NCBI RefSeq assembly: GCF_003355515.1
Contig: NZ_CP031367.1
Span: forward strand, 1,612,001 to 1,676,000
Length of the DNA: 64,000 nt
Direction of reading: 5' to 3'
Source: Aliarcobacter trophiarum LMG 25534
GTDB taxonomy: Bacteria; Campylobacterota; Campylobacteria; Campylobacterales; Arcobacteraceae
Position numbers and translations under genes: made by a program
In this document: positions 5,018 to 29,897 of the stretch, one piece after another
Layout: each line of letters starts with the position of its first letter
Position numbering within the stretch: the first letter of the stretch is position 1
Notes under the pieces: generated by a model
Seen by the model: the letters and a program-made list of their open reading frames with translations, nothing else
What the model was told of the DNA's origin: nothing
Database searches by the model: none

Positions 5018-7126
5018 TTACCCATTTCTTTTTTTCATAATCTCTTCAGAAACATTTCTAGGAACCTCTTGGTATGAGTCAAACAACATAGAGTAAGTTG
5101 CTCTTCCTTGAGACATAGATCTTAAATCTGTTGAGTAACCAAATAGTTCAGATAATGGAATCATAGCAGTTACAAGTTTGATACCAGCTCTATCATCCAT
5201 AGATTGAACTTGTCCTCTTCTTTTATTACAATCACCAATTACATCTCCCATGTACTCTTCTGGAGTTTCAATTTCAACTTTCATAATTGGCTCAAGTAAA
5301 ACTGCACCAGCAGCTGCACTTCTACACCCTTGTTTGAATCCCATTGAAGCAGCTAATTTAAATGCCATTTCAGATGAGTCAACTTCATGGTAGCTTCCAT
5401 CATAAAGTGTAACTTCAATATCAACCATTGGATAACCAGCTAAAATACCACCTTGCATCGCTTCAAAACAACCTTTTTCAACAGCAGGAACATACTCTTT
5501 TGGAACAACCCCACCTTTAATATCATTATTAAATTTGAATGTTGGTTCACTTCCAGCTTCCATTGGTTTAATCTCTAAGTAAACATGTCCATATTGACCT
5601 TTACCTCCAGATTGTTTTGCATATTTATACTCTTGCTTAACAGCATTTCTAATAGTTTCTCTATATGCAACTTGAGGAGCCCCTACTTCTGCTTCAACTT
5701 TGAACTCTCTTTTCATTCTATCTACAAGAATTTCAAGGTGTAACTCACCCATTCCTGAAATAATAGTTTGTCCAGTCTCTTCATCAGTATTTACTCTAAA
5801 TGATGGATCTTCTTCTGCTAATTTCCCTAAAGCAATACCCATTTTTTCTTGGTCAGCTTTTGTTTTTGGCTCAACAGCAACAGAGATAACAGGATCTGGG
5901 AAATCCATTCTTTCTAAGATTACAGGATCTTTTTCACTAGCAAGTGTATCACCTGTGATTGTATCTTTAAGACCAACAACTGCACCAATTTCACCAGCAT
6001 AAAGTTCTTTAACTTCTTCTCTTGAGTTTGCATGCATTTTAAGTAATCTTCCGATTCTCTCTTTTTTCATTTTTGTAGAGTTTAGTACATAAGTTCCAGA
6101 CTCTAGAATTCCTCTATAAACTCTTGTAAATGTTAATTGTCCAACAAATGGGTCAGTCATAATTTTAAATGCAAGGGCAGCAACTTCACCTTTATCAGTT
6201 GAAGGAACAAGTACAGCCTCTCCATCTTGAGTTTCACCTTTAATATCAGCAACTTCTGTTGGTGCTGGTAAATACATAGCAACTGCATCAAGAAGTGGTT
6301 GAATTCCTTTATTTTTAAATGATGTTCCACAAACCATTGGAGTTATCTCCATAGCTAAACATCTTTTTTTAATTCCAGACACAATCTCTTCTTCAGTTAA
6401 TTCAACACCTTCAAGATATTTATCCATAAGCTCATCACTTGATTCAGAAGCAGCTTCAACAAGTTTTTCTCTATACTCAGCAGCCATATCAGCTAAATCA
6501 GCTGGAATCTCTTCAATTTTATACATTTCACCAGCTTGAGCATCTAATGTATAAGTATAAGCTTTCATCTTTACTAAATCAATCATTCCTCTAAATTGGT
6601 CTTCAGCACCAATTGGAATTTGAAGAGGAACTGGATTAGCTTTTAATCTATCTCTTACTTGAGCCATAACATTTAAAAAGTTTGCACCAGTTCTATCCAT
6701 TTTATTTACATAGATAATTCTAGGAACTCCATATTTATTTGCTTGTCTCCAAACAGTCTCAGATTGTGGTTGAACTCCACCAACTGAACAAAATACTGCA
6801 ACAGCACCATCAAGAACCCTCATTGATCTCTCAACTTCAATAGTAAAATCAACGTGACCTGGAGTATCAATAATGTTTATTTGTAACTGCTCATTTGTTT
6901 TTGGATGATTCCAAAAACATGTTGTTGCAGCAGAAGTAATTGTAATACCTCTTTCTTGCTCTTGCTCCATCCAGTCCATTGTTGCAGTACCTTCATGAGT
7001 CTCACCAATTTTATGAGAAATACCTGTATAAAAAAGGATTCTCTCTGTACTTGTTGTTTTTCCAGCATCGATATGAGCTGCAATTCCTATGTTTCTTACT
7101 CTATTTAAGGGTACTTTTCTTGCCAT
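5018..7126 (-). CDS. fusA: Elongation factor G
   Basis: Ribosomal translocase GTPase. At 702 residues it is full length, with P-loop AHIDAGKT (17-24), DTPGHVDF (near 88-95), NKMDR, and the domain IV and V segments [15 protein letters not shown] and [16 protein letters not shown]. It is the last gene of rpsL-rpsG-fusA, nine bases after rpsG, and is followed by a strong terminator. The start is ATG at 7126, a few bases after the rpsG stop. No truncation or odd composition is seen. Confidence 0.98.
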
Positions 7127-19395: not shown

Positions 19396-19482
19396 TAAAA
19401 AATCCTTAAAACTATTAATATATTAATTATGATAATATCACTTTTTAAAAAAACCAAATATTATATCAAAAAAGAGATTATT

Positions 19483-20121
19483 ATGAAAATCAACCCAAAT
19501 GATTATGTAGGAAAAGCGATATTTATAACAGCAACTAACACAAATGTAGGTAAAACCTATGCTAGTGAAGTTTTTTTAAAATATTTTGCAAAACAGGGTT
19601 TGAAAGTTGGATATTTTAAACCAATTGAGACAGGAGTAGAAAACAACTCTCCTCTTGATGGAGTAAAAATGTTTGAACTTGTAAAAAAACTAAATCCTAA
19701 TTTTTTAAAACTTACTATAAATGATATTGTTCCTTACCAATTTACTCTTCCTGCTTCTCCTTATGTTGCAAAACAAAACACCTTTTTAGATATTGATTTT
19801 TTGATAGAGAAGAAAGAGTATTTACAAACTTTGTGCGATATTTTGATTATTGAAGGAGCTGGTGGCTTGATGGTTCCTATTAAAAAAGATTTTTTTATGA
19901 TTGATTTTATAAAAGAGCTAAGAGTTAAAACATTTTTGATAACTTCTTCAAAACTAGGATCTATAAATGATACCTTACTTTCACATGAAGCTTTAAAAAA
20001 TAGAGAACTAGATTTTGACTTTTTTATAAATTTGTATGAAGATAAAGATAGTTTTGAAGAGGTTTCAAAACCATTTTTAAAAGATTATTTTGGTGAATTG
20101 AAGTTTTTACAGGATTTATAG
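19483..20121 (+). CDS. bioD: Dethiobiotin synthetase
   Basis: Closes the ureido ring of dethiobiotin from 7,8-diaminopelargonate, CO2 and ATP, the penultimate step of biotin synthesis. P-loop TNTNVGKT at residues 18-25, IIEGAGGLMVP in the middle, and the substrate-binding PIETG near 45; 212 residues. I chose the ATG at 19483 rather than the in-frame ATG at 19429: the latter would put 18 lysine-rich residues before the conserved start and leave only 33 bases for the divergent promoters. No other bio gene is adjacent. A terminator follows immediately. Confidence 0.94.
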   Translation: MKINPNDYVGKAIFITATNTNVGKTYASEVFLKYFAKQGLKVGYFKPIETGVENNSPLDGVKMFELVKKLNPNFLKLTINDIVPYQFTLPASPYVAKQNTFLDIDFLIEKKEYLQTLCDILIIEGAGGLMVPIKKDFFMIDFIKELRVKTFLITSSKLGSINDTLLSHEALKNRELDFDFFINLYEDKDSFEEVSKPFLKDYFGELKFLQDL

Positions 20122-21475: not shown

Positions 21476-22609
21476 ATGATGACTTCTGCGATAGATTTAT
21501 CAAAACTTACAGCAAAAGATGACTTAACTCCAGTTCTTGGTGGTTATTGGCCAGGGATTCAAATTTATTATCCCCCTATAAAGTTTAATCCTCTAGATGG
21601 TTCTTATGAGAGTATAGAACAAGCGAAATTAAGACTTCAAAAACATGCTTATAATACAAGAGCTCACACAGTTCTATTTGACTTAGAAGATGGATGTAGA
21701 CAAAAAGCTATGAGTAGAGAGCTTTTAATTCAAGAGTTACCAAAATTTCCAGAAAGAGAGTTTCAAATAGCTATTAGAATAAACCCTTTTAGAACTGAAG
21801 AGTATGAAGAGGATTTAAAAATGCTTAAACAAATTCATCAATATATAGATGTAATTGTTTTAGCAAAAGCTGGAGAAGTTTATGGAAGTGCTGAGATTAG
21901 AGATTTATCATCTTGGCTTATCTCTATTGGAAGTAATCTTACAATTCAACCAATCGTTGAACACCCAAAATCTTTAAAAATTGCTGATAGATTAATGGAG
22001 TACTCAACTGTAAAACATATTGTATTTGGAATTCATGACTTTTCAAAAGCTATGGCATATAAAATCACTCCAAAAAATTGGATTGATGAACTTGAAACTT
22101 ACTTTGATATGCTAACACTTGAAGCAAGAATTAAAGGAAAAGGGGTAATTGGTGGAGTTGAAGTTATGCTTACACCACACTCACTACCAAGTAGTTGTGT
22201 TGAGAAAAAAGATATTAGAAGATGGTTAGATTTACATGGTGATGAAGCTAGTAAATATGTATATTCACATGCTTTAAGAGAGAGTTCTATGGGATTAACA
22301 GGTAAACAAGTAATAACACCAAATCATATTAATATCTGTAAAGTTGCATTTACTCCTAGTCCAAATGAGATAGCAAAAGATGTATCTATCTTAAAAGCAG
22401 CTCTTGAAGCTGATGCACTTTTAAGTGGAGCAATTAGATATGAGGGTGAAATGCTTGATCCTCCAATGTTTGGTAAATCTTTACAAAATATTTTAAGAGC
22501 TTATGCACTTAAGAGTTTAACAAAAGAGGACGAGCTTTTTGCTCTTTCAGTATTAAATAAAATGCCTATTAATACATTTAAAGAAAACTGGCCATATGGT
22601 CAATTATAA
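21476..22609 (+). CDS. HpcH/HpaI aldolase / citrate lyase (CitE) family protein
   Basis: CitE-like TIM-barrel enzymes cleave or form acyl-CoA esters such as malyl-CoA and citramalyl-CoA, or hydrolyse them. The family residues are intact: FDLEDG (69-73), Arg101 in IRIN, metal ligand Glu162 (IVEHP) and metal ligand Asp188 (GIHDFS). 377 residues, with an N-terminal extension and a C-terminal lid (KMPINTFKENW). First gene of a four-gene unit; AAGG lies eight bases before the ATG at 21476, and a second ATG follows directly. The next gene is 18 bases downstream. It could be a lyase, a thioesterase or a malate-synthase-like enzyme. Confidence 0.87.
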   Translation: MMTSAIDLSKLTAKDDLTPVLGGYWPGIQIYYPPIKFNPLDGSYESIEQAKLRLQKHAYNTRAHTVLFDLEDGCRQKAMSRELLIQELPKFPEREFQIAIRINPFRTEEYEEDLKMLKQIHQYIDVIVLAKAGEVYGSAEIRDLSSWLISIGSNLTIQPIVEHPKSLKIADRLMEYSTVKHIVFGIHDFSKAMAYKITPKNWIDELETYFDMLTLEARIKGKGVIGGVEVMLTPHSLPSSCVEKKDIRRWLDLHGDEASKYVYSHALRESSMGLTGKQVITPNHINICKVAFTPSPNEIAKDVSILKAALEADALLSGAIRYEGEMLDPPMFGKSLQNILRAYALKSLTKEDELFALSVLNKMPINTFKENWPYGQL

Positions 22610-22627: not shown

Positions 22628-25150
22628 ATGAGTCAAACAGTAAAATTAGATATACCTGAATTTTTAAATATTGGAGTCGCTTGTACATCTGCTTGGGTTG
22701 GTACAGCAAAAGAAGATAATGTTGCTATGATTATTGAAGATGATAAACTAGGAACTGATACAGTAACTTATAAAGATTTAGCAACAAAATCAGATCAAGT
22801 TTCAAACTTCTTTACAAACAAAATTGGTCTAAAGCCTAGAGATAGAGTTTTAGTTTGTCTTAAAAACTCTTTAGCATACCCAATATCATTTTTTGGAGTT
22901 ATGAAAGGTGGAATGATTGCAGTTCCTACTTCAACACTTTTAAGTGGTAGTGAAGTTAAATATTTAGCTGAAGATTCTCAAGCAAAAGCAATAGTTTTAT
23001 CTGCTTCTATGTTTGAAAACCTAGTTCCATATTTAGAAAACTTAGATAATTTAAAAACAATAGTTGTAGCAGGAATTGATAGTGTTGAAAATCTAAATAA
23101 ACCAAAAGATATAGAGGTTTTTGCACTAAATGAGATTTTTGAAAAATGTGAAAAAAGTGCAAATCACTACAATTCAAAATCAGGAGAACCTGCATATTTA
23201 GTATATACATCTGGAACAACTGGTTATCCAAAAGGAGTTTTACACTCTCATAGATCACTAATTGGAAGAAAACCAGCAACAGATTTTTGGTTTGATTTTA
23301 AAGAGAATGATAGAATTATGCACTCTGGGAAATTTAACTGGACTTATGTATTAGGTTCAGCTTTAATGGATCCACTATTTAACGGTCACACAGTTATTGC
23401 TTATGAAGGTTCAAATGATGCTTCAACATGGATTAATCTAATCAAAAAACATAACTGTACAATTTTTATTGGAGTTCCAACTATTTATAGACAAATTATC
23501 CAAAAAACAGACTTTACACTAGATGATTGTCCAAGTTTAAGATATTGTATGAGTGCTGGAGAGCATTTAAGTGATGAGATGTTGGGGCTTTGGAGAGATA
23601 GATTTAAACAAGATATTTTTGAAGCAATTGGTATGAGTGAGTGTTCATACTATATTTCACACTCAAAAAACAATCCAATAAGACCAGGAAGTGCCGGTTT
23701 CCCACAACCAGGACATATTGTAAAACTATTAAATCCAGAGACACTTGAAGAAGTTGGTATTGAAGAAGAAGGTATGATTTGTATAGGAGAAGATGATCCC
23801 GGACTATTTTTAGAGTATTGGCAACTAGAAGAAGAGACTTTAAAAGCAAAACATGATGGATATTTCTTTACAGGTGATTATGCAAGAAAAGATAAAGATG
23901 GATATATCTGGTTTATCGGTAGAAAAGATGATATTATCAACACTTTTGGATTTAGAGTAAGTCCACATGAAATTGAAAGAGTTGTAAAAACTCATCCTGA
24001 TGTTGCTGATTGTGTTGCTTTTGGTCTTGATATTGAAAAAGAGAAAACAATTGTTGCAATTGCTGTTGTTGGGCACTCTACACTAAGTAAAGAGCAAGAG
24101 CAAAATATTTTAAAATTTGCTCAAAACAATCTTGCAAAATACAAAGCTCCAAAAGAGATCTTTACAATGAGTGATTATCCTAGAACAAAAAATGGAAAAG
24201 TTCTTAGAAAACAGCTTGTAAAAGATCTACATGAACAATATTTTGCAATAGTAAAAGGTGAAGAGATAGTTGAATACAAAGCTAGAAGATCAATGCTACT
24301 AGTTCCTGCATATAACAAACACAATGTAGAAAAAGCTAGAACTGTTCTTGCTGATACACTTATTTTCGATTTAGAAGCTATCTTAGAAGACCAAAGAGAG
24401 ATTGCAAGAGAGACTTTAAGAGAGGTTTATAAAGAGGGTGGAACTAAATTTGGAGAGAGTGAAAGAGTATTAAGAATAAACAATCTAGGAAGTGAAGATT
24501 TGAAAAAAGATTTAGCTTTAGCAAAAGATATAGAGCTAGATGGTTTACTATTCTCTAAAATTGATAAAAAAGAGGATGTATTAGAGGCCGTTAAACTTAT
24601 AGAAGCTGTTAATCCAAACTTAACTTTGATGATTATGATTGAAACTCCACTATCTGTTTTAAATATTCAAGAGATTTGTGCAGCTAGTTCAAAAGTTGAA
24701 GTTGTAGTTGTTGGTTCAAATAAACTTGCAAATAGACTTCAAATTGATATTAAAAGAGGTTCAAAAGCTATTGTTACATATTTAGCTCAAATTGCACTTG
24801 CTTCAAAAGCTTATAATAAAACTGTAATAGATGGTCCACACTTTGATGTTTTAGATGAATTTGCTTGTGAAGACTCTACAAAAGATGCATTTAATCTAGG
24901 ATTTGATGGAAAATCACTTATCCATCCAATTCAAATTGAGTATATAAATGATATTTTCACTCCAAAACAAGCGGAAGTTGAAGATTATGAAGAGATGATA
25001 AGAAGATATGAAGATGCGAATAAACAAGGTAAAGAGGTAATTATGTACAATAATAAACTTGTTGATTCTTCAAGAATAGCTTGGGCTAGAAAAATGATTA
25101 AACTTTATGAGACTTATAAAGCTCTTGGTCAAAATTTATTTGGTAAATAA
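22628..25150 (+). CDS. Acyl-CoA synthetase fused to a degenerate CitE-like domain
   Basis: 840 residues in two parts. Residues 1-540 form an AMP-forming acyl-CoA synthetase: P-loop YTSGTTGYPKG (193-203), motif AIGMSE (333-338), TGDYARKDKDGYIWFIGR (415-432) and the C-terminal catalytic Lys524 in KNGKVLRKQL. Residues 553-840 form a CitE-like domain starting RRSMLLVPAYN and including RINNL, MIETPLSVLN, VIDGPHFD and GFDGKSLIHP. It keeps metal ligand Glu672, but the family Asp after it is Lys699 (GSNKL), and the DLEDA motif reads DLEAI (581-585). The second domain is therefore probably not a metal-dependent lyase and may be structural or regulatory. It lies inside a CoA-ester operon, with GGAG before the ATG. 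The substrate may be a dicarboxylate such as mesaconate. Confidence 0.88.
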   Translation: MSQTVKLDIPEFLNIGVACTSAWVGTAKEDNVAMIIEDDKLGTDTVTYKDLATKSDQVSNFFTNKIGLKPRDRVLVCLKNSLAYPISFFGVMKGGMIAVPTSTLLSGSEVKYLAEDSQAKAIVLSASMFENLVPYLENLDNLKTIVVAGIDSVENLNKPKDIEVFALNEIFEKCEKSANHYNSKSGEPAYLVYTSGTTGYPKGVLHSHRSLIGRKPATDFWFDFKENDRIMHSGKFNWTYVLGSALMDPLFNGHTVIAYEGSNDASTWINLIKKHNCTIFIGVPTIYRQIIQKTDFTLDDCPSLRYCMSAGEHLSDEMLGLWRDRFKQDIFEAIGMSECSYYISHSKNNPIRPGSAGFPQPGHIVKLLNPETLEEVGIEEEGMICIGEDDPGLFLEYWQLEEETLKAKHDGYFFTGDYARKDKDGYIWFIGRKDDIINTFGFRVSPHEIERVVKTHPDVADCVAFGLDIEKEKTIVAIAVVGHSTLSKEQEQNILKFAQNNLAKYKAPKEIFTMSDYPRTKNGKVLRKQLVKDLHEQYFAIVKGEEIVEYKARRSMLLVPAYNKHNVEKARTVLADTLIFDLEAILEDQREIARETLREVYKEGGTKFGESERVLRINNLGSEDLKKDLALAKDIELDGLLFSKIDKKEDVLEAVKLIEAVNPNLTLMIMIETPLSVLNIQEICAASSKVEVVVVGSNKLANRLQIDIKRGSKAIVTYLAQIALASKAYNKTVIDGPHFDVLDEFACEDSTKDAFNLGFDGKSLIHPIQIEYINDIFTPKQAEVEDYEEMIRRYEDANKQGKEVIMYNNKLVDSSRIAWARKMIKLYETYKALGQNLFGK

Positions 25151-25159
25151 GGAGTTTTC

Positions 25160-26245
25160 TTGTCAAAGATTAGTAATAAAATAAATTTTGGTAACTATTT
25201 TGAAGATTTCTCTATTGGTCAAAAAATAGTTCATCCACTTCCACGAACTATTAGCGAAGGTGATGTATCTTTATACATAGCCTTTACTGGAAGTAGATTC
25301 TCTCTACATTCAAGTGATATTGTGGCAAAAGAGATGGGATATAATAAAAGACCAATTGATGATATTTTAATGTTTCATTTAACATTTGGAAAATCTGTTC
25401 AAGATATATCTTTAAATGCAATTGCAAATTTAGGATATGCTGAAGTATCTTTTGTAAATCCTGTTTATGTTGGAGATACAGTTAGTATGACTTCATCTGT
25501 AATTGGACTAAAAGAGAACTCAAATGGAAAGAGTGGAGTTGTTTATGTTCACTCTATTGGAGTAAATCAAGATGGGAATGAGGTTTTAAACTTCAAAAGA
25601 TGGGTTATGGTTCACAAAAAAGACCACTCTATAAAAAGTGATATAAATGTTGTTCCTACTTTTGAAAAAAGTGCCCCAATAAATATTGTAAATATTCCAA
25701 CTATTAAAAAAGTTGATACAGATGCAAGTGGTGGAGAGTTTTTCTTTGAAGATTATGAAGTAGGAGAGAGACTTAATCATCCTGAAGGAATTACTATTGA
25801 TAATAGTGATCATACCCTTGCAACAAAACTTTACCAAAACAATGCAAAGGTACATTTCAATGACCATATGATGAAATCAACTCCTATGGGTCAAAGACTT
25901 ATGTATGGTGGAATTATTATCTCAATAGCACGAGCAATCTCACATAATGGGCTTTTTAATGCTCAGTGGGTATATGCAATAAATAGTGGAAGCCATAGTA
26001 ATCCTACATATGCTGGAGATACTATTTATGCTTACACTGAAATTTTAGAGAAGATTGAGGTAAATAGAGATGATATTGCTCTTTTAAGAGTAAGAACAAT
26101 TGCACTTAAAAATCAAAATCCAAAAGAGATAGAAAATCCAAAAGAGATAGAAAATGCAAAAGGTGAAGATGGAAAGTATCTTCCAAATGTAGTTTTAGAT
26201 TTAGATTACACAGTTGTAATCCCAAAAAAATCAACAAAAAAATAA
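25160..26245 (+). CDS. Double hot-dog MaoC-family hydratase (mesaconyl-CoA hydratase-like)
   Basis: 361 residues made of two hot-dog domains, about 10-160 and 190-355. The length and double domain match the mesaconyl-CoA hydratase (beta-methylmalyl-CoA dehydratase) group, which interconverts mesaconyl-CoA and methylmalyl-CoA. Features include PLPRTISEGDVSLYIAFTG, EVSFVNPVYVGDTV, HFNDHMMK and the second-domain NSGSHSNPTYAGDTIYA. The start is TTG at 25160 with AAGGAG seven bases upstream, nine bases after the synthetase stop. An 18-bp tandem duplication near the C-terminus adds a second NPKEIE unit. Itaconyl-CoA hydratase is an alternative. Confidence 0.86.
   Translation: MSKISNKINFGNYFEDFSIGQKIVHPLPRTISEGDVSLYIAFTGSRFSLHSSDIVAKEMGYNKRPIDDILMFHLTFGKSVQDISLNAIANLGYAEVSFVNPVYVGDTVSMTSSVIGLKENSNGKSGVVYVHSIGVNQDGNEVLNFKRWVMVHKKDHSIKSDINVVPTFEKSAPINIVNIPTIKKVDTDASGGEFFFEDYEVGERLNHPEGITIDNSDHTLATKLYQNNAKVHFNDHMMKSTPMGQRLMYGGIIISIARAISHNGLFNAQWVYAINSGSHSNPTYAGDTIYAYTEILEKIEVNRDDIALLRVRTIALKNQNPKEIENPKEIENAKGEDGKYLPNVVLDLDYTVVIPKKSTKK
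26115..26150 (+). repeat. 18-bp tandem duplication inside the MaoC-family gene
   Basis: AAAATCCAAAAGAGATAG occurs twice in direct succession, followed by a decayed partial third copy. It keeps the frame and encodes NPKEIE twice in a surface loop. Confidence 0.9.
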
Positions 26246-26273: not shown

Positions 26274-27257
26274 ATGACACACCCAAAAGAAGCTTTATTT
26301 GAATCTGGTAAATCTTTACCAATTATTCCAACTTGTGAACACTTTGCAGGAAGCGAAAAGCTAATCCTAAAAGGTTTTGAAATGCAAAAAAAACTAGGAC
26401 CTGTTTTTGATATTACTTGTGATTGTGAAGATGGTGCAGAAACTGGTAAAGAAGTTGAACATGCTCAAATGATTGTAAGAGTTGTAAACTCTGCTGAAAA
26501 CCCATATAAAATGGCAGGTACAAGAATTCATGACCACTCTCATCCAGATTGGAGACAAGATGTTGATATTTTAGTAGCTGGTGCTGGAGAAAATTTAGCA
26601 TATATTACACTTCCTAAATCAACTTGTTATGAAGATGCAAAAACTCAAATTGAGTATATTCAAGCTGTTGCAAAAAAAGCTGGAATTAAAAGAGAGATTC
26701 CAATTCATATCTTAATAGAAACTCACGGAGCTCTACAAGATGTTGAAAAATTAGCAACTCTTCCTTGGCTACAAGTACTTGATTTTGGTTTAATGGACTT
26801 TGTAAGTGGTTATCAAGGAGCTATTCCTGCAATAAATATGAGAAGTCCTGGACAATTTGAGCACAGACTTATTGGTGCTGCAAAAGCAAGAGTTGCACAA
26901 GCTGCTATTCAAAATTGTGTAATTCCTTGTCATAATGTAACACTTGATCTTAAAAATCCATACCAAACATATAAAGATGCTGAAAGAGCTAGAAATGAGT
27001 TTGGATTTATGAGAATGTGGTCAATTTACCCAACACAAGTTCAAGCAATTGTAGATGCTATGAAACCAGACTTTACAGAACTTGAAGCTGCACAAAATAT
27101 CCTAATCAAAGCTCAAGATGCTGAGTGGGGACCAATCCAATATGATGGTGAGTTACACGATAGAGCAACTTATAGATATTTTTGGGAATTAGTTCAAAGA
27201 GCTAAATACTCAGGAGCAAAACTTCAAGATATAGTTGAGCAAAGATTTTTTGCTTAA
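26274..27257 (+). CDS. CitE-family CoA-ester lyase (malyl-CoA / methylmalyl-CoA lyase-like)
   Basis: 327 residues, the usual size for malyl-CoA lyases. Conserved residues are intact: DCEDG (50-54), Arg84 in AGTRIHD, Glu149 (ILIETHGAL) and Asp175 (FGLMDFVSG). The C-terminal SIYPTQVQAIVDAM is the CoA-binding side. It is the last gene of the unit, 28 bases after the hydratase, with AAAAAGGAAAA before the ATG and a strong terminator after the stop. The likely role is cleavage of methylmalyl-CoA to glyoxylate and propionyl-CoA, or of malyl-CoA to glyoxylate and acetyl-CoA. Exact specificity is not decidable from sequence. Confidence 0.87.
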   Translation: MTHPKEALFESGKSLPIIPTCEHFAGSEKLILKGFEMQKKLGPVFDITCDCEDGAETGKEVEHAQMIVRVVNSAENPYKMAGTRIHDHSHPDWRQDVDILVAGAGENLAYITLPKSTCYEDAKTQIEYIQAVAKKAGIKREIPIHILIETHGALQDVEKLATLPWLQVLDFGLMDFVSGYQGAIPAINMRSPGQFEHRLIGAAKARVAQAAIQNCVIPCHNVTLDLKNPYQTYKDAERARNEFGFMRMWSIYPTQVQAIVDAMKPDFTELEAAQNILIKAQDAEWGPIQYDGELHDRATYRYFWELVQRAKYSGAKLQDIVEQRFFA

Positions 27258-27416: not shown

Positions 27417-28916
27417 ATGAGTAAAAAGATCACAGAACAAGATATTATTGATTCAGTTGCAAGTGCCTGTCAATTTATCTCGTTTTATCATCCAGAAGAT
27501 TTTGTAAAAGGTATGGTTGAAGCATATGAAAATGAGAAAAGCGATGCTGCTAAAAATGCAATTGGGCAAATATTAATAAACTCAAAAATGTGTGCTATGG
27601 GTCATAGACCATTATGCCAAGATACAGGAAGTGTTAATATTTTTGTAAAAGTTGGTTTAAAAGCTAACTTAGATATTACAAAAAATTTAGAAGATTTATT
27701 AAATGAAGGTGTAGCAAAAGGTTATACTGATCCTGATAATACTCTTAGATATTCAGTTGTAGCAGATCCTGCAGGAAAAAGAGTAAATACAAAAAATAAT
27801 ACACCAGCAGTAATTCATGTAAGTGTTGATAACTCTGATAGACTTGATATTACAGTTGCAGCAAAAGGTGGAGGAAGTGAAAATAAATCTAAATTTGCTG
27901 TTTTAAATCCTAGTGATAGTATTTATGATTGGGTTATGGCAAATGTAAAAGATATGGGTGCAGGATGGTGTCCTCCTGGAATTTTAGGAATTGGAATTGG
28001 TGGAAATCCTGAAAAATCAATGCTTTTAGCAAAAGAGTCTTTAATGGGACATGTTGATATCCACGAACTAAAAGCAAGAGGTCCACAAAATCCACTTGAA
28101 GAGTTAAGACTAAAACTTTATGAAGATATAAACAAACTAGGAATTGGAGCTCAAGGTCTTGGTGGTCTTACAACAGTTTTAGATGTTAAAATCTTAGATT
28201 ATCCTTGTCATGCTGCTTCTTTACCTGTTGCTATGATTCCAAACTGTGCAGCAACAAGACATATTCATTTTGAACTAAATGGAAATGGACCAGCTAAGTT
28301 TAATAAACCTGATTTAGACCTTTGGCCAGATATTAAACTTCCAATGGACACAATTAAAAGAGTAAATATTGAAGATTTAACAAAAGAGAATTTATCTCAA
28401 TTTAAATCAGGAGATACACTTTTACTTTCTGGAAAAATATTAACTGCTAGAGATGCTGCTCATAAAAAAATAGTTGAGTATAAAAATGCTGGAAAACCAC
28501 TTCCAAATGGAGTTGATTTAAAAGATAAATTTATCTACTATGTAGGTCCGGTTGATCCTGTTAAAGGTGAAGTTGTAGGACCAGCAGGACCAACAACATC
28601 TACAAGAATGGATAAATTTACAAAAGATATGATGGAAATTGGTATTATGGGAATGATTGGAAAAGGTGAGAGAAAACAACCAACAATTGATTTAATAAAA
28701 GATTATAAATCTATCTATCTTATTGCAACTGGTGGTGCTGCTTACTTAATCGCTCAATCAATTAAAGGTGCAAAAACTCTAGCATTTGAAGAGCTAGGAA
28801 TGGAAGCTATTTATGAGTTTGAAGTAAAAGATATGCCTGTAACTGTTGCTGTTGATACAGAAGGTAACTCTATTCATACAACAGGACCTGCAAAATGGAG
28901 AACTATTAATAAGTAA
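27417..28916 (+). CDS. fumA: Class I fumarate hydratase (single-chain, Fe-S)
   Basis: Oxygen-sensitive [4Fe-4S] hydro-lyase that interconverts fumarate and malate. At 499 residues it contains both the alpha and beta parts in one chain. The three cluster cysteines are Cys67 (PLCQDTG), Cys185 (GWCPPG) and Cys277 (IPNCAATRH); the C-terminal part has GPTTSTRMD and ATGGAAYL. Enzymes of this class can also hydrate mesaconate to citramalate, which matters because the operon just upstream looks built for mesaconyl-CoA chemistry. It has its own promoter, so any link is by neighbourhood. ATG start with AAAGGAAAA upstream. Confidence 0.95.
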   Translation: MSKKITEQDIIDSVASACQFISFYHPEDFVKGMVEAYENEKSDAAKNAIGQILINSKMCAMGHRPLCQDTGSVNIFVKVGLKANLDITKNLEDLLNEGVAKGYTDPDNTLRYSVVADPAGKRVNTKNNTPAVIHVSVDNSDRLDITVAAKGGGSENKSKFAVLNPSDSIYDWVMANVKDMGAGWCPPGILGIGIGGNPEKSMLLAKESLMGHVDIHELKARGPQNPLEELRLKLYEDINKLGIGAQGLGGLTTVLDVKILDYPCHAASLPVAMIPNCAATRHIHFELNGNGPAKFNKPDLDLWPDIKLPMDTIKRVNIEDLTKENLSQFKSGDTLLLSGKILTARDAAHKKIVEYKNAGKPLPNGVDLKDKFIYYVGPVDPVKGEVVGPAGPTTSTRMDKFTKDMMEIGIMGMIGKGERKQPTIDLIKDYKSIYLIATGGAAYLIAQSIKGAKTLAFEELGMEAIYEFEVKDMPVTVAVDTEGNSIHTTGPAKWRTINK

Positions 28917-29060: not shown

Positions 29061-29897
29061 ATGAATTTATTAGAAGATTTAAAAGATTATTTAGGATTTG
29101 CAGTTGCCGGAAACTTTGCAAATCATTTAGGAGAAGCTGGAGAAGCGGATGAGTTTTCTATTATAGAGACAAAAGAAAAAGATGCTCCAAAGGGTATGTT
29201 CCCTTTTTATATAAAAGGTCATGATAGTTTTCTAGGAACTTACCCTATTTGTGATGAAGTTATTTTAACTCATGGAAGAGAGTGTGATAATCTTCAAGTT
29301 GAAGCAGAAGTAGCTTTAATTTGTGATTTTGTATATGAAAGCGAAAAAATAGTAGATATTATTCCCAAATACTTTACAGCATTCAATGATTGCTCTATTC
29401 GAGTTCAAGATGGTAGCAAACTTAGTACAAAGAAGAACTGGGGAACAAATACAAAAGGAATTTCACAAGACATTATAGCTATTGATAACTTTAGTGAAAA
29501 TGGAGTTTTAGGTAAATATCATATCTCTTCATTTATAAAAAGAGATGGTATTGTTTGTGATTATGGAACAACTAGTGCAGTAAAATCTTACAGCTATTTT
29601 TTTGAAAAGCTAAAATACTGGATGATTGATATTTTAAATTGCCAAGAAGATTGTGGACCACTTGAAGAGTTAGGACAATTTCTAAAATATGCTCACAATT
29701 CAAAAGGTATTTTAATAGCTGCAGGTGCAACAGCATATACAGATTTTGGTAAAAAGAACTTTCTAAAAAAAGGTGATGAGATTTTTGTATATGTTTATAA
29801 TGCTCATGCTCATAGTTTTCAAGATATTATGAATGATATGTGTGGAATGGATACATTTTTAGGGCAGTGTTCAAAACTTCACCAAATAGTAAAGTAG
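29061..29897 (+). CDS. DUF5718-like protein, function unknown
   Basis: 278 residues, no signal peptide or TM segment. The start LKDYLGFAVAGNFANHLGEA and the block PKGMFPFYIKGH look like the DUF5718 family of Campylobacterota; that family match is from memory. Parts such as EVALICDFVY, NWGTNTKGIS and LIAAGATAYTDFGKKNFLKKGDEI recall the fumarylacetoacetate hydrolase fold, so an enzymatic role is possible but not shown. Its own promoter probably lies in the 144-base gap after fumarase; AGGA precedes the ATG. It converges on the hemerythrin-PAS gene, and both stop codons lie inside one palindrome. Confidence 0.75.
   Translation: MNLLEDLKDYLGFAVAGNFANHLGEAGEADEFSIIETKEKDAPKGMFPFYIKGHDSFLGTYPICDEVILTHGRECDNLQVEAEVALICDFVYESEKIVDIIPKYFTAFNDCSIRVQDGSKLSTKKNWGTNTKGISQDIIAIDNFSENGVLGKYHISSFIKRDGIVCDYGTTSAVKSYSYFFEKLKYWMIDILNCQEDCGPLEELGQFLKYAHNSKGILIAAGATAYTDFGKKNFLKKGDEIFVYVYNAHAHSFQDIMNDMCGMDTFLGQCSKLHQIVK

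Follow-up and report, generated by a model that had tools for sequence, protein, structure and literature searches.

A degenerate CitE domain fused to an acyl-CoA ligase in Aliarcobacter trophiarum: loss of the metal-binding aspartate in fused relatives and a stand-alone degenerate homologue in unfused modules

The window analysed here, a stretch of 64,000 nucleotides from the 1.92 Mb genome of Aliarcobacter trophiarum LMG 25534 (contig NZ_CP031367.1, positions 1,612,001 to 1,676,000), carries a gene module in which an AMP-forming acyl-CoA ligase is joined at its C-terminus to a domain with the predicted fold of CitE and the malyl-CoA lyases (Table 1). The fusion gene lies between CitE-A and a MaoC gene that precedes CitE-B, and this order (CitE-A, fusion, MaoC, CitE-B) is found at 50/50 fused loci, within contig reach; with the same proviso, CitE-A is present in all the fused and unfused modules examined. 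As far as sequence motifs tell, the metal and lid motifs of CitE-A are intact, and both CitE-A and CitE-B retain DLED/DCED, the Arg, the Glu, the metal Asp and the lid Asp, in agreement with the original prediction that the two other CitE paralogues of the operon are intact. CitE-B matches the structures 3QQW (E 1.5e-135) and 3R4I (E 3.5e-98), two very close relatives deposited as putative citrate lyases, and plasmid-borne CitE genes of Cupriavidus are about 60% identical to it. The class I fumarase gene is an accessory that adjoins the module in only part of the lineage and is not adjacent in the gammaproteobacterial loci. A DUF5718 (PF18985) gene lies 3′ of the module (window 29061-29897), as it does in most Arcobacteraceae loci, even those without an adjacent fumarase. 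On the 5′ side, a BioD-like (AAA_26) gene (window 19429-20121), likewise present in most Aliarcobacter-type loci, may be unrelated to the module.

Table 1. Genes, protein regions and active-site positions of the module in the window
Feature	Position in window	Strand	Basis or detail
CitE-A (AB1917-like), CitE-family lyase, 377 aa, first module gene	21476..22609	+	PF03328 30.8 bits; DLEDG, FGIHDF, MLD motifs
Fusion protein, 840 aa	22628-25150	+	AMP-forming acyl-CoA ligase + C-terminal CitE/malyl-CoA-lyase-fold domain
Ligase part of fusion, aa 1-546	22628..24265	+	PF00501 237.6 bits, PF13193 46.6 bits
Degenerate CitE domain of fusion, aa 547-840, TIM barrel + C-terminal lid	24266..25147	+	PF03328; AF2 domain model
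DLEAI, remnant of DLED(A)	24368..24382	+	Alignments; water-holding second Asp missing
Glu672, remaining metal-ligand position	24641..24643	+	Codon GAA
Lys699, position of metal-binding Asp	24722..24724	+	Codon AAA
Asp813, lid Asp, equivalent of Asp299/Asp318 of malyl-CoA lyases	25064..25066	+	Codon GAT
MaoC double hot-dog, mesaconyl-CoA-hydratase-like	25160..26245	+	PF19315 80.4 bits, PF01575 65.8 bits
CitE-B (AB1920-like), CitE-family lyase	26274..27257	+	PF03328 29.5 bits; DCED, FGLMDF, LHD motifs intact
Class I (Fe-S) fumarase-family hydro-lyase, accessory	27417..28916	+	PF05681/PF05683; neighbourhood

In the fusion protein, Pfam places PF00501 at aa 29-398, PF13193 at aa 448-524 and PF03328 at aa 554-767, followed by the lid region up to residue 840. 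Judged from its sequence, the N-terminal part is an intact AMP-forming acyl-CoA ligase: in addition to the domain matches, it contains the P-loop, A8 and A10 lysine motifs (TSGTTGxPKG, GRxDDIINTFGFR and PxTKNGKVLR), all of them kept across 40 orthologues. None of the substrate-specific NCBIfam equivalogs reached its cut-off among the best 25 of 109 families. The C-terminal part scores 100 bits against PF03328, for which the cut-off is 25, and thus belongs to the CitE-like/HpcH-HpaI superfamily. An AF2 model of this domain alone (pLDDT 84.8, pTM 0.77) superposes, lid included, on malyl-CoA lyase 5UGR (VIA Z 32.5) and on CLYBL 5VXC (VIA Z 32.2), over 284 residues in each case. Mean conservation is good in the barrel (75%) and the lid (69%) and poor in the interdomain linker (47%), and the hinge residues F777, T778 and P779 are invariant in the fused family. 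Taken together, the domain model, the structure matches and the conservation point to a predicted fold in which barrel, hinge and lid are intact. The model of the full-length fusion is weak (pTM 0.49) and is therefore not read for the packing of the two domains.

It has been established that, in the malyl-CoA lyase of Rhodobacter sphaeroides, Glu141 and Asp168 bind Mg2+, that Glu44 and Asp45 of the DLED motif of malyl-CoA lyases hold the Mg2+ waters, and that Arg76 and the lid Asp299 act in catalysis; Glu141, Asp168, Glu44 and Asp45 have been termed absolutely conserved (PMC3832036). The fused domain keeps only part of this set. The codons confirm both residues, and the alignment (GSNKL against GTNDL, GAEDF and FGxxD) puts Lys699 on the metal Asp, at the Asp168 site, and Glu672 on the metal Glu. 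These assignments bear out the original prediction, according to which the CitE sequence was retained, Glu672 included, with a lysine replacing the metal-binding Asp. Hence the pair of metal ligands found in catalytic CitE-like lyases is reduced to Glu672, while the catalytic Arg and the lid Asp are present as Arg616 and Asp813. The lid Glu that marks the malyl-CoA thioesterase subgroup (Mcl2) is absent, Asp813 being found in all fused sequences. The proposed exchange of DLEDA for DLEAI is a real change of the motif, better read as DLE[D]AI, the loss of one residue and not a swap: DLE-AI is one residue shorter than DLEDAV in this and the other fused orthologues, so that the second Asp (equivalent to Asp45) looks deleted, although the gap at that very position is the aligner's placement in mixed alignments. 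All 27 other CitE homologues in the tree have Asp at position 699, Glu at 672 and DLED or DMED.

Scanning 84,980 species genomes recovered 50 fused loci, of which one is truncated by a contig end; as the scan relies on short conserved words that distant homologues can escape, 50 is a lower bound. The loci occur in Arcobacteraceae, Sulfurospirillaceae and some gammaproteobacterial MAGs, and together with the window they provide 51 fused sequences. Among the aligned loci, the fused gene most resembles that of an Aliarcobacter MAG (L091; 92% across the whole protein). In a first sample of 35 orthologues from the genus and family, Lys699 was present in 34, the exception having Asn together with a change of Glu672 to Asp. 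Among the 51 sequences, position 699 is K in 30, N in 9, T in 8, R in 2 and S and Q in 1 each, with Ala in one further genome; neither Asp nor Glu occurs there in any of the 51, so the observation of Lys699 is not due to chance. Residue 699 has changed at least 7 times in a tree that comprises 19 fused sequences. The absence of Asp combined with such varied residues indicates that the loss of the metal Asp is a family trait and lysine one of several outcomes. The orthologue alignment that the original prediction called for thus finds the loss of Asp conserved and Lys itself to be the rule in Arcobacteraceae only. A strain-specific change at Lys699 is discarded by the same counts, and the special role proposed for the lysine in the metal pocket is not supported; a lysine required as a substitute for the metal is discarded for the family.

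The other positions of the pocket have followed different courses. Asp813 is invariant (51/51), Glu583 is found in 48/51 rows, and Asn698 is invariant among 40 sequences. Position 672 is E in 43, D in 6, A in 1 and Q in 1, while position 616 is R in 44 and K in 6 of the 50 rows that cover the site. The second Asp of DLED is absent from every fused sequence covering the motif, and position 644, a Lys in typical CitE proteins, is variable among the fused family, which shows that the pocket itself has drifted. The CitE domain is nevertheless under purifying selection. Its dN/dS in close pairs is 0.05-0.13, with 0.03-0.11 for the ligase part, and its frame is open in every complete orthologue; the invariance of Asp813 and the ligase-like dN/dS indicate that the domain is not decaying. 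The fused copies from MAGs labelled as Gammaproteobacteria (L130, L131, L133, L134, L137, L140) cluster inside the fused set, a pattern that, barring binning errors, suggests gene transfer between phyla.

The origin of the fused domain can be approached through modules in which ligase and CitE homologue are separate. A search for CitE-A in 369 genomes from the class of one gammaproteobacterial carrier returned exactly 6 carriers; one has the fusion, and in the other five the locus encodes the ligase (53-58% identity) separately from a CitE homologue; a search of one gammaproteobacterial order added 8 further carriers, all of them unfused. Each of the resulting 13 unfused modules from sampled gammaproteobacterial genomes (L185-L187, L189, L190, L220-L227) has a stand-alone degenerate CitE homologue, here termed P, alongside the ligase; in L185 the start of P (6737) falls within the ligase stop codon, which ends at 6740. 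All 13 P proteins have Gly or His in place of the DLED Glu, and Glu or Gln at the lid position. The extent of the loss differs among them: in three, Asn replaces the metal Asp, while the other ten retain both direct metal ligands (Glu and Asp) and lack second-shell residues only. In the tree, fused domains, unfused P and the intact outsider L188 form one clade (support 100/99), in which the fused group sits on a long branch and its nearest unfused sister is weakly placed (84/60). The presence of a degenerate CitE in unfused operons argues that the fused domain descends from a conserved degenerate CitE partner belonging to a putative propionate/C5-dicarboxyl-CoA module, and that it is tied to the ligase and the module and not to the lysine. 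In L185, ORFs resembling phosphate acetyltransferase and acetate kinase by eye lie 3′ of the unfused module (L185:9087-12376), a possible outlet for acetyl-CoA.

The next relatives of the P clade carry a GTSDL/GTNDL motif and a lid Glu. One of these lid-Glu relatives, L146 of Ruegeria TM1040, adjoins mdh, a MaoC gene and sdh, presumably the same setting as that of R. sphaeroides Mcl2. A lid Glu instead of Asp has been described as a trait of the malyl-CoA-thioesterase subgroup (PMC3832036), and on this basis the group of L146 and L191 may consist of thioesterases.

Regarding the pathway, the A. butzleri genome paper contains a proposal for this cluster in which glyoxylate and propionyl-CoA are interconverted with pyruvate and acetyl-CoA via mesaconyl-CoA; in that scheme mesaconate is the substrate of the ligase, and the fumarase converts mesaconate to citramalate and back (PMC2147049). 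In one gammaproteobacterial order (L187, L220-L227), the unfused module abuts prpB, prpC and, where the stretch reaches that far, prpD, which suggests a role in propionate metabolism. Malic enzyme is usually found at these prp-adjoining modules, and L187 also has a GntR regulator. The genome of the window gave no match to malate synthase or to family III CoA transferase; the isocitrate lyase family was matched only in part, by a PrpB-like sequence. A glyoxylate-bypass context was discarded on the malate synthase and isocitrate lyase results, as was Mct-type intramolecular CoA transfer on that for the CoA transferase. The absence of matches to malate synthase and CoA transferase would fit a route through free mesaconate or citramalate and the ligase rather than the Mct route.

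With little more than even confidence, we favor a model in which the CitE domain is a non-catalytic, CoA-ester-binding, oligomerizing subunit of the ligase, derived from the degenerate partner P. One copy of a GTSDL/GTNDL protein with a lid Glu, the type of its nearest intact relatives, would have joined a module that is made up of CitE-A, ligase, P, MaoC and CitE-B and handles esters of the propionyl-CoA, mesaconyl-CoA or citramalyl-CoA type. Within the module, P would have lost parts of its Mg2+ site and, in one lineage, become fused to the ligase encoded beside it, turning the association into a covalent one. The present domain would most likely perform no C-C chemistry but retain hinge, lid and CoA-ester pocket; it might bring the ligase together by forming trimers or hexamers of the CitE type, by itself or jointly with CitE-A/B, and hold or sense the CoA-ester product of the ligase. 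In favor of this model are the loss of metal residues throughout the fused family against their retention in the 27 other CitE homologues, the ligase-like dN/dS, the preserved predicted fold, hinge and lid, the constant module order, the degenerate P in all 13 unfused modules, the clade uniting P with the fused domains and the neighboring prp genes. Several observations count against it: the invariance of Asp813, together with the mostly kept Arg616 and Glu672, leaves room for some remaining chemistry; ten of the 13 unfused P proteins still have their direct metal ligands; the pocket has drifted at position 644; and the nearest unfused sister is weakly placed.

The first of these observations leads to an alternative that we regard as rather unlikely, namely that the domain is catalytic and performs an altered, metal-independent chemistry on the ligase product (as a CoA-thioester hydrolase, an enolizer or in acyl-CoA editing) via Asp813, Arg616 and Glu672. 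The occurrence of Arg or Lys at 616 in all covering rows, the strong purifying selection, the lid Glu of the nearest intact relatives and the surroundings of L146 speak for it. On the other hand, the characterized CitE-like enzymes depend on Mg or Mn (PMC3832036), the occasional D, A or Q at 672 and the free variation at 699 are unlike a re-tooled catalytic site, and the lid position is Glu or Gln in unfused P. A domain serving solely as a scaffold, which would oligomerize or tether the ligase and dock it to CitE-A/CitE-B for channeling without binding CoA esters, seems to us decidedly unlikely. It would agree with the trimers or hexamers formed by CitE-like enzymes, in which the lids of malyl-CoA lyases close the pocket of the neighboring subunit (PMC3832036), and with the physical contact suggested by the invariant gene order and the gene fusion, but the former active-site strands (GSN-L, IHPxQ, DGP) and the lid Asp are conserved beyond what a surface scaffold needs. 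Much less credible is a slow genuine lyase with its metal bound through Glu583, Glu672 and Asn698: these positions are largely kept (Glu or Asp at 672 in 49/51), but Lys or Arg at 699 would occupy the pocket in 32/51 sequences and the second DLED Asp is gone. Finally, that the domain is a decaying, functionless tail can be practically dismissed. Its protein-level evolution is somewhat faster than that of the ligase domain (identity to L035 of 55.7% against 73.5%), but besides its open frames and ligase-like dN/dS it has been kept in two phyla and exists also as a separate gene. We give a low probability to a further reading, in which a metal-free CitE-fold domain acts on the ligase product by a novel CoA-ester reaction, or by gating, within a propionate/glyoxylate-to-pyruvate module; if true, it would be the first CitE-family pseudoenzyme or re-tooled enzyme serving as a ligase subunit.

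The cluster and the fusion have been known since 2007: ab1917-ab1921 of A. butzleri RM4018 form the same cluster, including the acetyl-CoA-synthetase/CitE fusion AB1918, whose CitE domain Miller et al. count among the possible malyl-CoA lyases (PMC2147049). The broken metal site and the unfused gammaproteobacterial form seen here go unmentioned in the available part of that account (PMC2147049), and our search found no other publication on such a ligase-CitE fusion or pseudo-CitE. Within the literature searched, it is new that the metal site has been lost throughout the family, that this loss does not depend on the lysine, that the domain is under purifying selection, that an unfused degenerate form exists and that the module is linked to prpBCD. 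A scan of viral contigs gave no relatives; phage relatives were likewise discarded, since phage records match part of the query at most, the top ones only in the ligase half. Plasmid records returned only distant CitE matches, and AB1920-like plasmid genes have unrelated surroundings, except for one beside mch and a gene annotated as a racemase; one Sphingobium homologue of CitE-B is located beside mch.

These comparisons matter because a CitE fold has been kept under strong selection after the loss of metal residues in a whole lineage, in two phyla and in both separate and fused form, departing from the absolute conservation ascribed to the metal residues of CitE-like proteins (PMC3832036). 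Genome annotation would overcount the active lyases of the pathway, and since the five-part module is tied to methylcitrate genes, the part in propionate metabolism that is proposed for it can be tested. Compared with the malyl-CoA/beta-methylmalyl-CoA lyases and CLYBL (5UGR, 4L9Y, 5VXC), the predicted model of the fused domain shares the TIM-barrel and lid fold (Z 31-32) and the positions of the metal Glu and lid Asp, whereas it lacks the metal Asp and the second DLED Asp and is joined to a ligase. The lid-Glu CitE-like proteins (L146, L191) are its nearest intact relatives by both profile score and tree, their GTND/GTSDL aligning with GSNKL of the fused domain; they have a full metal site and a lid Glu, whereas in the fused domain the lid residue is Asp and the metal Asp is missing. 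The unfused gammaproteobacterial module, in turn, resembles the fused one in that a single locus holds homologues of CitE-A, the ligase, P, MaoC and CitE-B, and differs in that ligase and P are separate and in that P, with a lid Glu/Gln, has mostly kept the metal Asp and lost the DLED Glu. Intact, unfused degenerate and fused degenerate forms thereby constitute a natural series in which the change from enzyme to subunit can be tested.
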